NCBI RefSeq assembly: GCF_006539865.1
Contig: NZ_BJNV01000035.1
Span: 1-50,428, forward strand
DNA: 50,428 nt
Reading direction: 5' to 3'
From: Zoogloea ramigera
GTDB taxonomy: Bacteria > Pseudomonadota > Gammaproteobacteria > Burkholderiales > Rhodocyclaceae
Within the stretch, counting starts at the first letter, position 1. Each line of letters begins with the position of its first letter. Below are positions 6,566 to 50,428 of this stretch, one piece after another. The notes under the pieces were generated by a model. It did no database searches. It saw only the letters and a list, made by a program, of their open reading frames with translations, and was not told the DNA's origin. The translations under genes and the position numbers were made by a program.

Positions 6566-9352
6566 TCAGGCGGTTTCGTCGAGCAGGGCGTGGACGTCGG
6601 CGACGAGCGCGGCGTAGGCGGCCCGGGCCTCGCCGATGGAGAGGGCGGCTTGATCCAGCTGGCCGGCCTTGGCGAGGGCTTCGAGCCCGCGGAAATGTTC
6701 GGCTGCCGCCAGGCCGCCGATGTTGGCACTGCTGGACTTGAGGGCGTGGGCCGCTTCGCGGGCGGCGCTGGCATCCCCGGCGGGGATGGCGGTTTCGAGC
6801 TTGTGGATGAGCGCGGTCGAGCTCTCGAGATACACCGCCAGCAGCCTCCGGGCGAGGCTCCAGCCGCCGTCGGGGTCGAGTTCGCGGTAGGGTTCGAGCA
6901 CCTTGCGGTCGATGGCCGTGGCGCCCTTAGGGGCGTTGGTGCTGGTGGGCGGCGGGGCGGCGGCATCTGCCGCGGGGGCCGGCCGGGTTGGCAGCCAGCG
7001 CTGCAGGGTGGCCTCGAGCTGGGCGGTGGTGTAGGGCTTGGCGAGGTAGTCGTCCATGCCGGCGGCGAGGCACTGGTTGCGGTCGCCCTCCATGGCGTTG
7101 GCGGTGAGGGCGATCACCGGCAGGTGGTGGCCGCCCTGACCCTCCCGGGCGCGCAGCAGCGCGGTGGCCTGGTAGCCGTCCATCACCGGCATCTGGCAGT
7201 CCATCAGGATGGCGTCGAAGGCTTGCGTGGCCGCCAGCGCGAGGGCTTCCTCGCCGTGCTGGGCGATGGCCACCGTGAGGCCCAGCTTCTGCAGCATCGC
7301 GCGGGCGAGCTCCTGGTTGACCGGGTTGTCCTCGGCCAGCAGCACATGGCCGTGGAGCAGGCCGCCGGGGGCGGGTCTGGCAGTGGGCGCCGCCGGGGGC
7401 GCGACCGCCGCGCTGCCGGCGCCCAGGGCCCAGCCGACGACGTGGCGGAGTTCGGCCTGGCGTACGGGCTTGCTCACGCAGCGCAGGATGCCGGCCTCCT
7501 CGCGCTCGCGGGCGTTGCCGGCGATGAAGGTCGAGGTGAGCATGATCAGCCGGGTCGGGGCGAGGGCCGGCTCGGCGTGGATGGCCTGGGCGAGCTGCAG
7601 GCCGTCCATCCCGGGCATGTGCATGTCGAGGATGGCGAGATCGAAGGGCTGGCCGAGCCCGGCCGCTTCGTGGAGGGCTTCGAGGGCCTGGGCGCCGCTC
7701 TCGGCGCAGTGCACCTGCATGCCCCAGCCGCCCAGCTGCAGGCGCAGGATGTCGAGGTTGGTGAGGTTGTCGTCCACCACCAGCACCCGCGCGCCTTCGA
7801 GCCGGGTGGTGGCGGATTCGGGCGCATCCGCTGGGCTGGCCGCCCGGGGCAGGCGCAGGTCGATGTGGAAGCGGGAGCCCTTGCCCACCTCGCTGTCGAC
7901 GCCGATGCGGCCACCCATCAGCTCGATCAGCCGCCGGCTGATCGCCAGCCCCAGCCCGGTGCCGCCGAACTCGCGGGTGGTGGTGCCGTCGGCCTGGGAG
8001 AAGTGCTCGAAGATCTTCTCGCGGGCGGCGGCGGAGATGCCGACGCCGGTGTCCTCGACGCTCAGGCTCACCTGCATGTGCTCGCCCTCCGGCACGACCT
8101 GGGCGCGCACCACGACCTCGCCCTGGCGGGTGAACTTGATGGCGTTGTTGAGCAGGTTGGCCAGCACCTGGCGCAGCCGGAAGGCGTCGCCGCGCATGCG
8201 CAGGGCGACGTTGGGCGGGCTGAGCTGGCTGGCCAGCTCGAGGCCTTTCCCGGCGGCCGGCTGGGCGAACATCTCCACGCTGTCCTCGACGAGCTCGACC
8301 AGGTCGAAGTCGGTGGCTTCGAGCTCGATGTAGCCCGACTCGATCTTCGAGAAATCGAGGATGTCGTTGATGATGCCCAGCAGGTGGCGCCCCGACTGCT
8401 GGACCAGCTCGGCGTAGCGCTGCTGGGTGGGGTCGAGCCGGGAGCTCAGCAGCAGCTCGGTCATGCCGAGCACGCCGTTCATCGGGGTGCGGATCTCGTG
8501 GCTCATGGTGGCGAGGAACTCGCTCTTGGCCTGGCTGGCGGCTTCGGCCTGCTCCTTGGCGGCGCGCAGCTCGGCGGTGCGCCCTTCGACGAGCTCCTCG
8601 AGGTGTTCCTGGTGCTCGCGCAGGCTCGCGTCGCGGGCCCGCAGTTCGCCCAGCATGTCGTTGAAGCTGTCCACCAGCCTGCCGATCTCGTCCTCGCCGC
8701 TGCGGGGGATGTGCTGGTCGTAACGCTGGCTTTCGGCCACCTCGCGGGCGGCCGCGGCGAGGCGCAGCACCGGCTCGCTGATGCGGTGCTGCAGGCGCTG
8801 GGCGGCCAGCACCGCCAGCAGCAGCACCAGAACGCCCAGCCCGGCCGTGGTGAGGCTGTCCCGGCGGATCTGGCGCCACATCTCGGACGGGTCGACCACC
8901 ATCGACAGGGTCCCCAGGGTCTCGGCACCGTCGATGCCGGCGGCGGTGGGCCGCAGCACGTAGTCGAAGCGCAGCGGGCGGGTCGACAAGGGCAGGCCGC
9001 GTTCGAAGCCGTTTGGCGTGAGCTGCGCGAAGACGTCGGGGGCGACGCCGGCGGGGTAGGCGGCCAGCAGGCGCCCGTCGGGCAGGACGATGCGGGCCGC
9101 CACCACCTCGGGTTGCTCGCGCAGGCTGGCCAGGTTGACCGCCGCGGCCTGCTCGTCGCCGAACACCACCGCCGCCTCGGCGTTGGCGGCCACCACGTGG
9201 GCCAGGCTGCGCAGCTGGGACATCATCGAGCCCTGCTGGCGCAGGGTGCCGGCGACGGTGAAGATGATCAGGGCCAGCGCGAGCACCGCGAAGGCCATGC
9301 CGGCCAGCATCAGCAGCAGGCGTCGGCGCAGGGAGGAGGCTTTCCAGTTCAT
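6566..9352 (-). CDS. Hybrid sensor histidine kinase with HAMP, HK-REC-REC-HPt
   Basis: This is a 928-residue membrane kinase. Two TM helices (about 12-34 and 168-184) flank a periplasmic sensor of about 130 residues resembling CHASE8-type domains ([22 protein letters not shown]). HAMP lies at about 185-240, then a coiled coil, and HisKA with H285 in [13 protein letters not shown]. The HATPase has [15 protein letters not shown] and [10 protein letters not shown]. Two receivers follow ([13 protein letters not shown] and [13 protein letters not shown]), then an HPt with H869 in [13 protein letters not shown]. The start [11 protein letters not shown] was chosen because the upstream in-frame extension is Arg/Pro-rich non-coding-like sequence, and this start puts the TM helix in its usual place. 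It is the first gene of a three-gene unit with the binding protein and the second kinase. Its core is nearly collinear with the 835-residue kinase, but that kinase lacks HAMP and has a different sensor. Confidence 0.92.
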
Positions 9353-9766: not shown

Positions 9767-10879
9767 ATGTCGGCCTTGTTCACGCCCTTCGCCCTCGACG
9801 GCCTCAGCCTCCCCAACCGCATCGTCATCGCGCCCATGTGCCAGTACTCGGCGGTGGACGGCAACGCCCAGGACTGGCACCTGATCCACCTGGGCAACCT
9901 GGCGCTCTCCGGCGCCGGGCTCCTGGTCATCGAGGCCACCGGCGTCGAGCCGGAGGGGCGCATCACGCCGGCCTGCCTCGGCCTGTGGTCGGATGCCAAC
10001 GAGGCGGCCCTCGGCCGGGTGGTCGAGGGCGTCCGCAAGTATTCGGACATGCCGCTGGCGATCCAGCTCGGCCACGCCGGCCGCAAGGCCTCCAGCGCGC
10101 TGCCCTGGCAGGGCGGGCAGCTGTTGGCGCCGGAGGCGGGCGGCTGGCCGACGCAGGGGCCGTCGGCGCTGCCCCATCTGCCCCACGAACCGGCTCCGCG
10201 GGCCATCGATGCTGATAGTCTGGTGCGCATCCGCGAGGCTTTTGCGGCGGCGGCGCGGCGGGCGGCGCGGATCGGGATCGACTGCATCGAGCTGCACGGG
10301 GCCCACGGCTATCTGCTGCACCAGTTCCTGTCGCCGCTCTCCAACCAGCGCGACGATGCCTACGGCGGCAGCCTCGAGAACCGCATGCGCTTTCCGCTGG
10401 AGGTGTTCGACGCGGTGCGGGCGGCCTTTCCGGCGGGCAAGCCGGTGGGGATGCGCATCTCGGCCACCGACTGGGTTGAGGGCGGCTGGGACCTGGAGCA
10501 GAGCGTGGTGCTGGCCCAGGCGCTGAAGGCCCGCGGCTGCGCGTTCATGCATGTCTCCACCGGCGGCCTGTCGCCCCAGCAGAAGCTGGTGCCGGGGCCG
10601 GGCTACCAGCTGCCGTTTGCGGTGCGCATCCGTCAGGAGACCGGTATGCCGACCATCGCGGTGGGCCTGATCACCGAGCCGGAGCAGGCCGAGGAGATCG
10701 TCGCCAGGGGCCAGGCCGATCTGGTGGGCGTCGCCCGCTGCATGCTCTACGACCCGCGCTGGCCGTGGCATGCCGCGGCCCGGCTGGGCGCCCGCTTGAC
10801 GGCGGCGCCCCAGTACTGGCGCTGCCTGCCCCGCGAGCACGCCCAGCTGTTCTCGGGTGCGCAGGTGGGCGGGCGCTGA
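9767..10879 (+). CDS. NADH:flavin oxidoreductase, old yellow enzyme family (YqjM/XenA type)
   Basis: This 370-residue TIM-barrel FMN flavoprotein should reduce activated C=C bonds of enones or related xenobiotics with NAD(P)H in the cytosol. Motifs read in order: APMCQYSA with C25, the cysteine that tunes FMN in the XenA/YqjM class; WHLIHLGNLALSGAGL; QLGHAGRKAS; HGAHGYLLHQFLSP with the substrate-binding His and following YGGSLENRMRF; and GLITEPEQAEEIV with GVARCMLYDP for FMN phosphate binding. The length is normal for class III OYEs. The start ATG has AGGAG 8 bases upstream (9754-9758), which rejects the longer upstream in-frame extension. It is the only plus-strand gene in the kinase block and stands alone. 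The physiological substrate cannot be read from context. Confidence 0.93.
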   Translation: MSALFTPFALDGLSLPNRIVIAPMCQYSAVDGNAQDWHLIHLGNLALSGAGLLVIEATGVEPEGRITPACLGLWSDANEAALGRVVEGVRKYSDMPLAIQLGHAGRKASSALPWQGGQLLAPEAGGWPTQGPSALPHLPHEPAPRAIDADSLVRIREAFAAAARRAARIGIDCIELHGAHGYLLHQFLSPLSNQRDDAYGGSLENRMRFPLEVFDAVRAAFPAGKPVGMRISATDWVEGGWDLEQSVVLAQALKARGCAFMHVSTGGLSPQQKLVPGPGYQLPFAVRIRQETGMPTIAVGLITEPEQAEEIVARGQADLVGVARCMLYDPRWPWHAAARLGARLTAAPQYWRCLPREHAQLFSGAQVGGR

Positions 10880-45735: not shown

Positions 45736-47136
45736 TCACGCCCGGTAGGCCGCCTGCACCACGCCCGGCGGCAGCACCTTGCCGGGGTTTAGGAGGTTGA
45801 GCGGGTCGAGGGTGGCCTTGAGGCTGGCCATCACCGCCACCGCGTCGCCGTGCTCGGCGAGCAGGAAGTCCTGCTTGCCGATGCCGATGCCGTGCTCGCC
45901 GGTGCAGGTGCCGTCGAGGGCCAGCGCCCGCTCGACGATGCGCCGGCCGAGCGCCTCGGCGGCCTCCACCTGCTCGGGCTGGTCGGGGTGGGTGAGGATC
46001 ACCACGTGGAAGTTGCCGTCGCCCACGTGGCCGACGATGGGGGCGATCAGGCCGCTGGCGGCGATGTCGTCTTGCGTGCCGGTGATCGCCTCGGCGAGGC
46101 GCGAGATGGGCACGCAGACGTCGGTGGAGATGGCCTTGCAGTCGGGCACCAGGTTGATGCTGGCGTGCAGCACCTGGTGGCGGGCCTGCCACAGGCGGTT
46201 GCGGTCTTCCTGGCGGGTGGCCCACTCGAAGCCCTCGCCGCCGTTGTCGCGGGCGATCTCCTGCACGGTTTGCGCCTGCTCCTCGACGCCGGTGGGCGAG
46301 CCGTGGAACTCGAAGAACAGCATCGGCGCCTCGCGCAGGGTGGTCTTGCTGTAGCGGTTGACGGCGTGCACGGTGAGGGCGTCGAGCAGCTCGATGCGCG
46401 CCACCGGCACGCCGAGCTGGATGGTCTGGATCACCGTCTGCACCGCGCTCGCCACGTCGGGGAAGGCGCAGGTGGCGCTCGACATGGCCTCGGGCAGCGG
46501 GTGCAGGCGCACGGTGACCTCGGTGATGACGCCCAGCGTGCCCTCCGAGCCGACGAACAGGCGGGTCAGGTCGTAGCCGGCGGACGACTTGCGGGCCCGC
46601 CCGCCGGTGCGGATCACCCGCCCGTCGGCCATCACCACTTCGAGGCCCAGGGTGTTCTCGCGCATCGTGCCGTAGCGCACGGCGTTGGTGCCCGAGGCGC
46701 GGGTCGACACCATGCCGCCCAGCGACGCGTCAGCGCCCGGGTCGATCGGGAAGAACAGGCCCGTGCCATGCAGCGCCGCGTTGAGCGTCTTGCGCGACAC
46801 GCCGGGCTGCACCACGGCGTCCATGTCCTCGCCGTGGATGGCGACGATCTGGTTCATCTCGGAGAGATCGAGGCACAGCCCGCCATTGACCGCCAGGATG
46901 TGGCCCTCCAGCGAGCTGCCGGCGCCGTAGGGGATCAGCGGCACCCGGTGCTCGCGGCACAGGTTCACGATCTCGACCACCTCGGCGGTGGAGTGGGCCC
47001 ACACCACGCCGTCGGGCAGCGCATCCGAGAAGTGGGATTCGTCGTGGCCGTGGTGGGTGCGCACCGCCTCGGCGGTGGAGAAACGCTTGCCGAAACGCTC
47101 GGCGAGGGCGGCGGTGAAGGGCGTGGGCAGGGGCAT
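45736..47136 (-). CDS. FAD-linked 2-hydroxyacid oxidase, GlcD / D-lactate dehydrogenase type
   Basis: This is a 466-residue flavoprotein of the vanillyl-alcohol-oxidase fold. The FAD-binding PP-loop is VPLIPYGAGSSLEGHI, followed by DPGADASLGGMVSTRASGTNAVRYG and GLEVVMADGRVIRTGGRARKSSAGYDLTRLFVGSEGTLGVIT. The C-terminal cap has PIVGHVGDGNFHVVIL (metal/substrate histidines) and CTGEHGIGIGKQDFL. This is the layout of glycolate oxidase subunit GlcD and of D-lactate (cytochrome) dehydrogenases. It oxidises a D-2-hydroxyacid at the membrane and passes electrons to the respiratory chain. glcE/glcF partners are absent, which favours D-lactate dehydrogenase. The ATG is preceded by a C-rich heptamer repeat instead of a Shine-Dalgarno. 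Confidence 0.9.
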   Translation of the reverse strand: MPLPTPFTAALAERFGKRFSTAEAVRTHHGHDESHFSDALPDGVVWAHSTAEVVEIVNLCREHRVPLIPYGAGSSLEGHILAVNGGLCLDLSEMNQIVAIHGEDMDAVVQPGVSRKTLNAALHGTGLFFPIDPGADASLGGMVSTRASGTNAVRYGTMRENTLGLEVVMADGRVIRTGGRARKSSAGYDLTRLFVGSEGTLGVITEVTVRLHPLPEAMSSATCAFPDVASAVQTVIQTIQLGVPVARIELLDALTVHAVNRYSKTTLREAPMLFFEFHGSPTGVEEQAQTVQEIARDNGGEGFEWATRQEDRNRLWQARHQVLHASINLVPDCKAISTDVCVPISRLAEAITGTQDDIAASGLIAPIVGHVGDGNFHVVILTHPDQPEQVEAAEALGRRIVERALALDGTCTGEHGIGIGKQDFLLAEHGDAVAVMASLKATLDPLNLLNPGKVLPPGVVQAAYRA

Positions 47137-47140
47137 GGCG

Positions 47141-47175
47141 GAGTGGGGAGTGGGGAGTGGGGAGTGGGGAGTGGG
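47141..47175 (-). repeat. ACTCCCC tandem heptamer before the GlcD-like gene
   Basis: Read on the plus strand it is GAGTGGGGAGTGGGGAGTGG, continued to five GAGTGGG(G) units and ending GTGGGCGTCAGG. The coding strand therefore carries (ACTCCCC)n ending 4 bases before the ATG. On the plus strand it is a textbook quadruplex motif with four G4 tracts. The trailing TCAGG is shared with the elements before ccmC and ccmF. Confidence 0.8.
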
Positions 47176-47232: not shown

Positions 47233-47967
47233 TCATCGGAGCGCGGGCGCCTGCCGTTGCAGCGTTTCCTCGGCCACCGGGCCAAAGAACTGTCGGGTCA
47301 GGGAAAAGAAGCGGCTGAGCCGGCCTGAGGATGGCACAAGGTCAACCGCGACCAGATCGGGAAGACTCCAGCCTCTCTCGGTGTGCTCAATAAACAATTC
47401 GTCGAGTTCGTCCCACCACTGGCGCCGCCGGGTGACGAGGAAAGGGCTGTTGAGGTTGAGTGTGTCGATGGTGTACTGAGCACGATCCCGTGCCGGGGCA
47501 TCGAGATCATCGGTCGGTGTCACGCGCCCATCGGACAGGTAGGCGAAGAAGCGACCGCTGTCGGGTTGATGCGGTGAAATGAAGCGATGCATGTCCACCG
47601 GGCGCTGCTCGTCTTGTTTGCCGGGGGCATGGCCGCCAAAGAGTTCGTCGCCCTTAGCCTTGAATGTGCCCAGGTCATTGGTGCTGTGCAGGGCACTTGC
47701 AGCAAGGTTCGCGTAGTCGAGGGTGCGAAGCGGATTCTGCGCTTTGTTCTCGACGTGCTCGATGTGATAGCCCAGCCCTTCCTCGTCAGCGCGCAGTTCG
47801 CTGTAGCAGCACAGATGAAACTGCTCGGCGAGCAGGTGCTGCAGCACTTCGTCCTTGTGGTGAAAGTTCTTCCAGCGACTTTTTGCTTGATCGGGTGTTT
47901 GGGGCGGATTGGTGTTCGACTGCTTGAGGTGAAAACCACCCGAGCCTTGTTTTTGAATCGCCCTCAT
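47233..47967 (-). CDS. PtuB-like HNH nuclease of a Septu-type defence pair
   Basis: This 244-residue protein resembles the HNH proteins (TIGR02646/PtuB type) that accompany PtuA ATPases in Septu systems and some retrons. The nuclease core is C53-C54-Y-S-E (LCCYSELRADE), then H68-I-E-H71 (GYHIEHVENKAQNP), then N87 (LDYANLAAS). This matches the EH...N pattern of the beta-beta-alpha-Me fold, although the second zinc cysteine pair usual in HNH domains is not seen. The C-terminal 150 residues carry LNLNSPFLVTRRRQWWDELDELF, the helical part typical of the family. It is encoded immediately downstream of the ATPase with an ATGA overlap, so the two are translated together. On phage infection such pairs are thought to degrade nucleic acid. 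Base composition is less G+C rich than the flanks. Confidence 0.75.
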   Translation of the reverse strand: MRAIQKQGSGGFHLKQSNTNPPQTPDQAKSRWKNFHHKDEVLQHLLAEQFHLCCYSELRADEEGLGYHIEHVENKAQNPLRTLDYANLAASALHSTNDLGTFKAKGDELFGGHAPGKQDEQRPVDMHRFISPHQPDSGRFFAYLSDGRVTPTDDLDAPARDRAQYTIDTLNLNSPFLVTRRRQWWDELDELFIEHTERGWSLPDLVAVDLVPSSGRLSRFFSLTRQFFGPVAEETLQRQAPALR

Positions 47968-49343
47968 CGCCTCAAAGCCTCCTGCCGCTGGATGCTGCGG
48001 CGGAGGCGCTGAAGCTGAGGGTGCTGTTCGCCCAGCGCCTGGGTGAGCTGGCTCAGGAGACTGACGGCGGCGTCATCCTGATAACGGCCCTGATCCACCC
48101 ATTCGGTCAGGCGCTGCAAATCTGCCTTCTCGGCGACCGGCGGCTGGGGGTCGACGAGCATCACACTCTGCATCACATCGCCGCTGGGCTCGCCGTAGGT
48201 GTGAGCCAAGGGTTCCGTGGCGATGATGTTGCCGCTCGGATCGGGCCCTAGAACCCGGATGTTCTCGCGGCGGACCGTGCTGAGCACCTGCGGGCTGTGG
48301 GTGGTGACGATGAACTGCAGTCGTGGAAAAGCCCTACGCAAGGCACCGGCGATGGTCTGCTGCCAGGATGGATGCAGAAACATGTCGACCTCGTCGATCA
48401 GCGCGACCCCGGGTGTCTCGAGGGCCGCATCGGCCCCCAGATGTGGATTGAGCTTGTAGGCACGATAAGCCAGGTCGGCCACCATCGCGATGGCGTTGCG
48501 CACACCGTCGCTCAGCATGTCCACCGGCATGCTGCCGAACTGTGCGTGGTGCATGACCAGCTGCTGATGCTGGCTGGCCTTGTATTCCAGCCCATGCCAG
48601 CCGGTAGTTTCGCTGACGAGCGTATCGACGGCGCGCGTGATGACGTCGATGATCGTCGCGAAACGCTGCCCGGTCTCGTCCAGCGGGCGGCCTTGTTCAA
48701 GCGCCCGGATCTGCTCTTCACGATAACTGCGAAAGATCCAGCCATACCATGCGGTGAAGGCCTTGAAGCTCGACGAGTAAGCGAGGCAATTCAGATAGCC
48801 CGAACTGCGGGAGTAATCGCTAGTGTTGAGCACGACATCCTCGGCGGTCGAGGTGAAGCGCCCTTCAAACCACAGGCGTGATGTGCCGAGGTAGCTGACG
48901 AGGGGCAGCGTGACAGTGTTATTGGCGCCGCGCAGCTGCTGCTCAAGCTGGTTGGCGAAGGCGGTCAGTTGCTTGGCGCCGGCGTCAGCCAGAGTGTTGG
49001 TGCCGGGTTTTACGCGTTCCCGGCTTTGCACCCATGTGCGTTCGGTGGAGTCTGTCTCCCAGGTGCCGATGGCTTCGATCCTGCTCGGGAGTTGCGGCTC
49101 CATGTTGCCATCGGCTTGCGGCGCCAGGCGAACGTCTGCGATCTGAATCGTGGCACTCTTGCCTGCTTGGCTTCCCAGGTCGAAGCCCTTCACATAGGGC
49201 CACAGAGCAACCCGCGCCGCATCCAGCACCGTGGTCTTGCCACTGCCGTTGGGGGCGATCAGGACGGTCAGTTCGGGGTGAAAGTCGATCTGCAAGGATT
49301 CGAAACAGCGGTAATTGCCAAGGGTCAGTTGCTTCAGGTGCAT
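47964..49343 (-). CDS. PtuA-like AAA/ABC-type ATPase of a Septu-type defence pair
   Basis: This is a 459-residue ATPase of the SMC/RecF-like AAA_15/AAA_21 class. It starts MHLKQLTLGNYRCFESLQIDF, the usual strand opening, with Walker A APNGSGKTT at 30-38. A long helical insertion (about 90-270) is followed by the signature-like MLSDGVRNAIAMVADLAY, Walker B ALIDEVDMFLHP with DEVD at 317-320, and the H-loop TTHSPQ with H349. This is the architecture of PtuA in Septu defence, where the ATPase holds the HNH nuclease in check or activates it. The start MHLKQL is inferred from the fold; GGGAG is about 11 bases upstream, so the exact start has some uncertainty. No reverse transcriptase or msr/msd is seen, so it is not an obvious retron. 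A dyad array lies 173 bases upstream. Confidence 0.82.
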   Translation of the reverse strand: MHLKQLTLGNYRCFESLQIDFHPELTVLIAPNGSGKTTVLDAARVALWPYVKGFDLGSQAGKSATIQIADVRLAPQADGNMEPQLPSRIEAIGTWETDSTERTWVQSRERVKPGTNTLADAGAKQLTAFANQLEQQLRGANNTVTLPLVSYLGTSRLWFEGRFTSTAEDVVLNTSDYSRSSGYLNCLAYSSSFKAFTAWYGWIFRSYREEQIRALEQGRPLDETGQRFATIIDVITRAVDTLVSETTGWHGLEYKASQHQQLVMHHAQFGSMPVDMLSDGVRNAIAMVADLAYRAYKLNPHLGADAALETPGVALIDEVDMFLHPSWQQTIAGALRRAFPRLQFIVTTHSPQVLSTVRRENIRVLGPDPSGNIIATEPLAHTYGEPSGDVMQSVMLVDPQPPVAEKADLQRLTEWVDQGRYQDDAAVSLLSQLTQALGEQHPQLQRLRRSIQRQEALRR

Positions 49344-49371
49344 GGCGCATGGCTCCCTGCGGAGTAAGTCG

Positions 49372-49386
49372 TTCAAATTTCTTGAA
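49372..49386. promoter_or_regulatory. 15-bp palindrome upstream of the PtuA-like gene
   Basis: TTCAA-ATTTC-TTGAA is a perfect 5-bp arm dyad located 29 bases before the PtuA start, inside a possible promoter: TTGGTT followed 17 bases later by TTACTC on the minus strand, both weak. It could be a repressor operator for the defence pair. Confidence 0.35.
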
Positions 49387-49515
49387 CCAAGGCTGCGGAG
49401 TATGAAGGACGTAGACGGAAATCTCGACCAGGCCCGCCGGCTCCAGGCGTTGACTATCAGCCGTTGGAGGAGACAGGGTGGGCGTGGCACTGGCGGCTTG
49501 GGGGAACCCTCGGTC

Positions 49516-49784
49516 GCCTCATTTTGAGGCGATGTTGCCTGGAAATGAGGCAGCCGAGGGTCCCGCTGACCCTCTGCCGCCTAAAAATGAGGCGACCGAC
49601 CCTCCCGCGGACCCTCGGGCGCCTAAAAATGAGGCGACATCGCCTAAAAATGAGGCGGCCGAGGGTGGCGGGGACCCTCGCTTGCCTAAAGTTTAGGCGA
49701 CGCTGCCTAAAGTTTAGGCGGCGTCGCCTAATAATGAGGCAGCACCGCCTCAAAATGAGGCGATGGAGGGTCGGCCGGACCCTC
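49516..49784. repeat. Array of 13 short dyads on an exact 21-bp lattice, two interleaved classes
   Basis: Nine class A dyads, GCCT-N7-AGGC (15 bp), start at 49516, 49537, 49579, 49621, 49642, 49684, 49705, 49726 and 49747. Four class B elements, GAGGGTC-N5-GACCCTC (19 bp), start at 49556, 49598, 49661 and 49766. The centres of all 13 fall at 49523 plus multiples of 21, with no exception, giving the order AABABAABAAAAB. A decayed class B unit (right arm AACCCTC, 49505-49511) fits the lattice one step earlier. In the 49598 element the left arm is inverted, making a direct repeat. Class A centres vary (CATTTTG, AAAAATG, AAAGTTT, AATAATG and others) while arms stay fixed. 21 bp is two helical turns, so all sites face the same side of the DNA. 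The array lies between the PtuA-like gene and a small minus-strand gene. Function unknown. Confidence 0.9.
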
Positions 49785-49831
49785 CGTCGATCAACAATCA
49801 CCCCCCCGCCGGGGAGACGCCCGGGCCGGGT

Positions 49832-50296
49832 TCAGGCCGCGTCGTCGACCTTGGCCGGGCTGCTGCGGCGCACGTTGGAGCGCATGCTCTCCTGTAGCGG
49901 CGCCACGTTGTCGGCCTTGCCGTACTTCTTGAGCAGGTCATAGCCGTCGTAGCACGCGGTCTGGATGTCGCTGCCGAGGGCCACCCGGGTGTCGGCGCAC
50001 TTGGCCGTCAGGGCCTGCAGGCGCAGCAGCCGCGGGCGCAGCGCGTCGTAGGCGGCCAGATCGCGCTTCAGCTCTTTCAGGTCGAAGCCCGGCGGCAGCG
50101 CCTGCTGGTTCTGCTCGAGGATCGCCGTGGTCTGCCGGCAGAAAGTCTCGCTCCGCTCTCCGATCTTGGTGAGCCGCCGCATTTGCTCCGGGGTGAGGGA
50201 GACGAAGATGTCCATCAGCTGCTCGATGGCGTCGAGCGCGGCATCGAACTTGGGCAATTCATCGGTGAGGTCGAGGGAGATGAGGTTCTGGGCCAT
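49832..50296 (-). CDS. Uncharacterised helical protein
   Basis: This 154-residue protein (MAQNLISLDLTDELPKFDAALDAIEQLMDIFVSLTPEQ at its start) is predicted almost entirely alpha-helical, with no signal peptide or TM segment. Two cysteines occur at intervals in the second half (LTAKCADTRVAL, IQTACYDGYDLLKKYG). AGGAG lies 7 bases before the ATG, so the start is clear. I do not recognise a named family. Its 3' end is followed directly by the dyad array, so the two may be co-transcribed as a 3' UTR. A weak promoter is visible upstream. Confidence 0.8.
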   Translation of the reverse strand: MAQNLISLDLTDELPKFDAALDAIEQLMDIFVSLTPEQMRRLTKIGERSETFCRQTTAILEQNQQALPPGFDLKELKRDLAAYDALRPRLLRLQALTAKCADTRVALGSDIQTACYDGYDLLKKYGKADNVAPLQESMRSNVRRSSPAKVDDAA

Positions 50297-50388: not shown

Positions 50389-50393
50389 TCTGC

Positions 50394-50428
50394 GGGTCGG
50401 GTCGGGTCGGGTCGGGTCGGGTCGGGTC
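50394..50428. repeat. GGGTC pentamer tandem repeat at the window edge
   Basis: Seven uninterrupted copies of GGGTC run to the last base of the window and may continue beyond. The unit on the other strand, GACCC, equals part of the class B half-site (GACCCTC) of the nearby dyad array, which may be coincidence. Confidence 0.9.

Follow-up and report, generated by a model that had tools for sequence, protein, structure and literature searches.

A 21-bp lattice of inverted repeats beside a small helical protein gene of Zoogloea ramigera: a candidate platform for dimeric proteins

The window analyzed here (the whole stretch of 50,428 nucleotides from Zoogloea ramigera) contains an array of short inverted repeats whose centres lie exactly 21 bp apart, directly 3' of the gene for a 154-aa protein of an unnamed paralogous family (F1). 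The pitch, symmetry and polarity of this arrangement recur at other loci, while the letters of the repeats change from locus to locus. In our judgement, there is an even chance that the array serves as a phased duplex-DNA platform for one or more dimeric proteins, a reading drawn from sequence comparisons. The features of the window are as follows (strand is given where one applies).

49492-49785: dyad lattice, 14 slots of 21 bp, the first decayed, centres 49502 to 49775
49516-49530: class A site 1 (GCCT-N7-AGGC)
49537-49551: class A site 2
49556-49574: class B site 1 (GAGGGTC-N5-GACCCTC, exact)
49579-49593: class A site 3
49598-49616: class B site 2, direct (GACCCTC-N5-GACCCTC)
49621-49635: class A site 4
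49642-49656: class A site 5
49661-49679: class B site 3 (one mismatch, GAGGGTG)
49684-49698: class A site 6
49705-49719: class A site 7
49726-49740: class A site 8
49747-49761: class A site 9
49766-49784: class B site 4 (exact)
49832-50296, minus strand: F1 gene; its acidic 154-aa product belongs to an unnamed paralogous family and is predicted to be all-helix, and the array adjoins the gene on its 3' side
47964-49490, minus strand: PtuA-like AAA ATPase, ORF from GTG 49490; a neighbour, judged outside the element
47233-47967, minus strand: PtuB-like HNH protein; a neighbour, judged outside the element
45736-47136, minus strand: FAD-linked oxidase; in genome G004 directly after F1 and its array

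For PtuA, the ATG at 49343 seems a likelier start than the GTG at 49490. A pure CGGGT repeat closes the contig upstream of the F1 start (50393-50428), and the 7-mer GGAGTGG occurs five times between the PtuB and FAD-linked oxidase genes (47140-47175).

The first-pass annotation had described thirteen phased dyads of two classes, preceded by a decayed fourteenth. The lattice itself stands: 13 consecutive slot centres run from 49523 to 49775 with every step exactly 21 bp, nine of the 13 slots are class A (GCCT-N7-AGGC) and the decayed slot is present one step earlier, at 49502. The other four slots carry class B half-sites (GAGGGTC/GACCCTC), but not all as the perfect inverted repeats described. 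Those centred at 49565 and 49775 are exact, that at 49670 has a single mismatch and that at 49607 repeats the half-site in direct orientation, which leaves dyads in 12 of the 13 slots. At period 21 the best dyad score in the window is 47, while the maximum of 40 whole-window dinucleotide shuffles is 14.

Site anatomy was compared over 115 lattice slots from 11 arrays in four genomes, with array limits set beforehand and decayed end slots left out. Pitch and dyad phase are exact throughout except for one 1-bp slip (in G008 C204), which bears out the earlier proposal that dyad phase is preserved rather than unit length. Class A or class B accounts for 112 of these phased slots (82 and 30, respectively), and two of the three unassigned slots have GATGA/TCATC halves. 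The GCCT/AGGC letters of the 82 class A units show 6 mismatches in 656 positions (0.9%), a rate that is partly set by choice because class A membership required at least 5 of 8 matches to these letters, yet just 3 of the 115 slots were left unassigned. Offsets -2 (A) and +2 (T) show 3 mismatches in 164. Other positions are degenerate: A/C and T/G mixtures prevail at offsets -3 and +3, the base preceding GCCT is C or T about equally often, the centre is nearly free, and mismatches reach about half at the most degenerate positions. The class A half-site consensus is Y-GCCT-M-A. Linkers between units are 4-6 bp in length, and class A flanks are variable and roughly symmetric. Conserved half-sites beside degenerate positions, as in a binding motif, speak for a protein-binding platform. 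Against it, only 20 of the 30 class B units are inverted and 10 are direct repeats.

The two halves of a class A unit vary independently at the degenerate position. For the A/C choice, the four combinations number 24, 14, 17 and 8 (OR 0.81, p 0.79; 63 of 76 units, the 13 with another base being left out), and at the base preceding GCCT the halves show a weak trend in the opposite direction (OR 0.34, p 0.047; 74 of 76 units). As a stem would couple its halves, this independence points to two protomers rather than to a stem. Within-array covariation totals z 11.6 and peaks in the window, at 6.9, where the array is a mixture of two classes. It is near 0 in several one-motif arrays, and whole-unit covariation is seen in arrays with several unit classes.

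Arrays related to that of the window are found in the same genome on contigs C22, C89, C142, C25 (small) and C50, and class A/B arrays are also found in G004, G008 and G018. Adjacent class A pairs occur in 4 of the 60 genomes searched, all four among the 23 Zoogloea genomes, and in the window's own genome every one of the 27 exact class A sites falls within a lattice or a small remnant. Pattern TTCATCGACNTCGGCT is present in 1 of the 23 genomes. From flanks compared by eye, array positions are common to the window's contig (C35) and G004 C61, beside the 154-aa gene; to C22, G018 C71 and G008 C37, beside a gene that we take to be 5-formyltetrahydrofolate cyclo-ligase-like; and to C25 and G008 C204. 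In G008, a transposase-like insertion seems by eye to interrupt a class A array (L042 from about 1625, L051 1-95). A second inverted repeat (GTCGGACTTCAGTCCGAC) lies directly behind two G004 arrays (L130 about 7500-7640, L138 about 10110-10250).

When named genomes were scanned for two adjacent class A units, 14 stretches came up, nine from Zoogloea. The other five were judged by eye to be ordinary repeats, tandem or coding: Treponema has a long 21-bp tandem repeat that is nearly uniform (L075 2829-3130, dyad score 25), Actinomycetes a uniform repeat (L082, score 18), and the remaining three stretches (L077, L078 and L079) score 7 to 10. Because an ordinary uniform repeat such as that of Treponema reaches 25, the dyad score alone proves no function. 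Many units of the Treponema repeat have GCCTCA/TGAGGC halves, and one frame is open over the repeat, which may be either an ordinary repeat or a relative. Viral contigs gave three stretches, two of them coding-like. In one contig (L083 1817-1852) a pair of class A-like units stands at a distance of exactly 21 bp in apparently non-coding sequence; the others (L084 3038-3073, L085 5671-5706) have 21-bp palindromic repeats that look coding. Neither the array nor F1 has a match in plasmid or phage records, and a plasmid or phage origin was rejected on these grounds.

Linkage to F1 reaches beyond the class A/B letters. F1 has 77 matches in 14 of the 23 Zoogloea genomes, 12 of them in its own genome, and 60 of the 77 loci were examined. 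Many of these genes have a 3' period-21 dyad lattice with letters of its own, such as TTTCGG..CCGAAA, CGCAAG..CTTGCG, GATGCAGTT..AACTGCATC and CGAGCAGC..GCTGCTCG. Polarity was counted at the 55 loci with at least 400 bp on both sides, taking a dyad score of at least 11 as a lattice: 28 of 55 have a lattice 3' of F1 and 0 of 55 have one 5' (Fisher 7e-11), so that about half of the F1 loci are without a lattice at this threshold. The co-occurrence with homologues of the 154-aa protein for which the first-pass annotation proposed to look is therefore present. Control periods of 18, 19, 20, 22, 23 and 24 bp gave 0, 0, 0, 2, 2 and 0 of 55 downstream of F1, and two Zoogloea F1 loci favour period 22. 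Across about 1.1 Mb chosen around F1, 23 segments score at least 16 at period 21, versus 0 to 7 at other periods and 11 at the harmonic period 42; at a score of at least 20 the counts are 14 versus 0 to 2. Eighteen of the 23 segments sit just 3' of F1. The other five comprise four arrays (C22, C89, G004 C86 and C50) and one segment that looks like coding sequence (L121).

Lattices were also sought in 389 kb of other DNA from the window's own genome that was not chosen around F1, counting odd and even centres apart. At a score of at least 16, period 21 has 10 segments, period 15 has 7, period 12 has 6 and period 24 has 5, and here the count alone does not set period 21 apart. Four further lattices in this DNA (L201, L203, L214 and L216) were judged real by eye, and two of them lie 5' of members of a second small family, F2. 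One lattice 5' of an F2 gene (L214 5703-5955) has a 63-bp superperiod with three unit types. F2 is found in 15 of the 23 Zoogloea genomes, namely the 14 with F1 and G021. Thirty of the 61 F2 matches were fetched, and of the 28 loci counted, 10 have a lattice 5' and none has one 3' (p 7e-4). No convincing lattice was found in 400 kb of G006, which has no F1 or F2 match; a run of G/C homopolymers in that genome (L189 2489-2657) is possibly an assembly artefact.

The F1 profile matches 2 of the 398 genomes of a phylum sample, the window's own genome included. The other matching genome belongs to a family of the same class (f35), and F1 is found in 50 of 149 f35 genomes. Examination of 32 of the 117 f35 matches, mainly the best of each genome, showed lattices with new letters, 3' of F1 in 13 of 31 loci versus 5' in 2 of 31 (p 0.002), with control periods giving 0 to 2 of 31. 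At one f35 locus (L288) the lattice comprises 13 units at a pitch of 22 bp. F2 was found in 0 of 149 f35 genomes in a search run without a positive control.

The strongest rival to the platform reading is that the array is a selfish or neutral 21-bp satellite, spread by block duplication, with palindromes kept by template-switch correction and no function. Several observations fit such a satellite: block copies exist within the window array (TRF periods 42, 63 and 105), some arrays lie away from F1 and F2 (C22, C89, C50, L201 and L216 have neither gene adjoining), a uniform 21-bp repeat exists in the Treponema contig, and motifs turn over quickly between loci. Array letters are alike for 4 of 5 F1 pairs of at least 0.79 identity and mostly not near 0.7 (19 arrays), and some arrays within the window's genome share words (the window with L124 and L033). 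Nevertheless, we consider a functionless satellite unlikely for three reasons. First, decay is not uniform, as half-sites are conserved beside positions where mismatches are at about half. Second, template-switch correction would couple the halves, whereas the degenerate position is independent between them. Third, the polarity relative to F1 and F2 and the recurrence in f35 would need an extra reason. An ordinary minisatellite would show uniform unit decay and no link to a gene family, and the arrays show neither.

Another possibility is that the array acts as RNA, being transcribed as a row of hairpins (the 3' UTR of F1, the leader of F2) that protects or processes the transcript. The arrays do lie 3' of F1, often near the stop codon, and as RNA the window array folds far better than shuffles (z -12.9). 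The "comb of hairpins" that the first-pass annotation foresaw for the single-stranded form is not the fold predicted, however: the minimum-energy RNA structure mostly pairs distant units into one long hairpin. A stem in RNA would be expected to accept G-U pairs and to be short of A-C. Across 24 arrays read on the sense strand, there are 216 G-T versus 158 A-C mismatches, a G-T share (0.578) that does not differ from that of a slid-partner control (0.571, p 0.79), and therefore no G-U signature was found. Neither G-U tolerance on one strand nor coupling at the degenerate class A position was observed, and no Rfam match lies above the gathering score. Terminator-like hairpins point in both directions. 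In f35 such a hairpin follows F1 in 12 of 13 loci, and in 8 of the 13 its end precedes the lattice (4 of 13 on the opposite strand), the lattice start of L288 being taken from its 22-bp lattice, while in Zoogloea one is recognized before the lattice at only 5 of 24 loci (0 of 24 on the opposite strand). The earlier suggestion of a structured RNA is thus weakened by the mismatches and the f35 terminators and retains the scarcity of Zoogloea terminators in its favour, and we regard a transcribed hairpin array as improbable.

The first-pass annotation also raised the possibility that the array is a regulator, trigger or self-marker of the Septu-like pair that adjoins it, and the array does lie about 150 bp upstream of the likely PtuA start. 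At the orthologous F1 locus of G004, however, an array is followed directly by the FAD-linked oxidase gene that follows PtuB in the window, with no PtuAB in between, which argues that the array is not a Septu part. In G007, F1 again stands beside that FAD-linked oxidase gene with a window-array-like sequence between them and no PtuAB, and C22, C89 and G004 C86 carry arrays of the window's classes next to different genes. The co-occurrence with ptuAB that the annotation suggested looking for accordingly fails at these loci; a role for the array in the PtuAB pair is largely refuted, and we hold it to be extremely improbable. Judging from the loci compared, PtuAB either entered the window site or was lost elsewhere, and the array does not depend on it. 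The genes directly beside the pair (47233-49490) include no reverse transcriptase, although the NCBIfam models that the pair matches are those of the retron Ec78 effectors.

A further reading of the gene content beside F1 is a recombination or landing site, in which arrays would provide repeated sequence where cargo such as defence genes enters. The F1 locus carries PtuAB in the window's own genome (G000), other gene pairs in its place in G017 (presumably an AAA ATPase and a second gene) and G002 (presumably a DUF262-like gene and a second gene), and neither in G004 or G007. A gene that we assume to be type I restriction-like also adjoins the C9 and G004 C86 arrays. Scans of 88 proteins downstream and 85 upstream of F1, though, gave defence-type matches on either side, so that no enrichment is shown, and the window cargo has an array on one side only. 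We think a landing site rather improbable. At the F1 locus of two relatives, the gene pairs that take the place of PtuAB (L088 2106-3925, L140 4455-6262) mark a possible cargo hot spot.

Returning to the platform reading, sharp half-sites, independent halves, strand symmetry and helical pitch together suggest dimeric, sequence-specific binding on duplex DNA. The first-pass proposal of dimer-type sites at two helical turns per step thus gains support. Each 21-bp slot would be a putative site for a dimeric, sequence-specific protein, and a spacing of two helical turns would line up neighbouring dimers along the same face of the double helix, which may build up into a short nucleoprotein filament or scaffold of a centromere-, silencer- or boundary-like kind. 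Class A (Y-GCCT-M-A) and class B (GAGGGTC) would then represent two specificities at one pitch, and the window element would be one of a larger set located 3' of F1 (in Zoogloea and f35) and 5' of F2 (in Zoogloea). The preference for period 21 at F1 loci and its repetition in f35, the lack of G-U bias and the f35 terminators all favour such a platform. The lattices lacking an F1 or F2 neighbour, the few Zoogloea terminators and the unremarkable period-21 count in the 389 kb count against it. As motifs differ between loci, a platform also needs many specificities or fast co-evolution.

The candidate binder is an F1/F2-linked factor or another protein. Scans of F1 and F2 members against Pfam, NCBIfam and PHROG gave no significant match, and the AlphaFold models of the two families are all-helix (pLDDT 82.8 for F1 and 87.0 for F2) with no match at E 0.001 or less in a PDB fold search. 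A phasin identity for the 154-aa protein was dropped, being unsupported by Pfam and NCBIfam. The median pI is 5.3 for F1, an acidic family with only a short basic tail, and 9.0 for F2, which is basic; the acidity of F1 speaks against simple DNA binding by F1, and this, together with the missing domain and PDB matches of both families, weighs against the platform. Motifs that are private to each locus, in a polarity fixed relative to F1 or F2, suggest a cognate system. It is possible, though on balance doubtful, that these are a new class of two-part chromosomal element in which the gene for a small helical protein (F1, or in Zoogloea also F2) has a 21-bp lattice of its own beside it, pitch, symmetry and polarity recurring across bacterial families while the word changes per locus. 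Each protein, directly or with a partner, might recognize the array private to it and assemble a nucleoprotein structure specific to that locus.

These pitch-conserved rows of palindromes look like an undescribed DNA platform for proteins. In agreement with the first-pass view that no element of this design was known, none was found in the open full-text literature (the search left most subscription journals outside its range), and none is described in the available portions of PMC5648520 and PMC3733652. If the reading is correct, the arrays would form a family of sequence-changing, pitch-conserved bacterial DNA platforms tied to unnamed protein families, and the question of how an architecture is conserved despite turnover of the recognized word would become testable. 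The period-21 dyad scan beside F1 is consensus-free and, as a detection rule, would find members that single-repeat searches miss.

Among known systems, the arrays were compared with REP/BIME sequences and their RAYT proteins (REPtrons), which are short intergenic palindromes that are sometimes clustered and, in the case of GTAG REPs, go with a dedicated protein gene (PMC3733652, in the portions available). The window array likewise consists of 20-40 bp intergenic palindromes in many copies. It differs in its exact lattice, of which those portions of PMC3733652 make no mention for REPs, and in that the GTAG or CGTC tag at one palindrome end, by which they define REP/RAYT elements, is absent from class A units. 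Its letters vary per locus, and the linked proteins are F1 and F2. The RAYT-type Y1 transposase (PF01797) has 0 matches in G000, G008, G018, G013 and G014; matches were found in 7 of the 12 genomes searched, including four in G006, which lacks F1. REP/RAYT membership was rejected on both the tag and the transposase.

CRISPR arrays consist of identical direct repeats with unique spacers, in contrast to the variable dyads with 4-6 bp linkers seen here, and the Septu genes adjoin the window array although arrays are also found without them. Partition sites and iterated operators are rows of protein-binding sites in helical phase beside a small protein gene, and the array, with its phased putative binding sites next to F1, resembles them in both respects. 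No ParA-type gene is among the window neighbours (F1, PtuA, PtuB and the FAD-linked oxidase), and the array differs from partition sites in its many chromosomal copies, its differing motifs and its at least two site classes per lattice. Bacterial minisatellites (VNTRs) have constant-length tandem units, copy-number differences and block duplication. The array shares these three features but keeps dyad phase rather than unit identity, combines unrelated classes in one lattice and has a fixed polarity to two gene families. At eukaryotic satellite centromeres the architecture is kept and the sequence is not; if the platform reading is correct, these arrays would be a bacterial counterpart of satellite DNA that has a defined gene as its partner.
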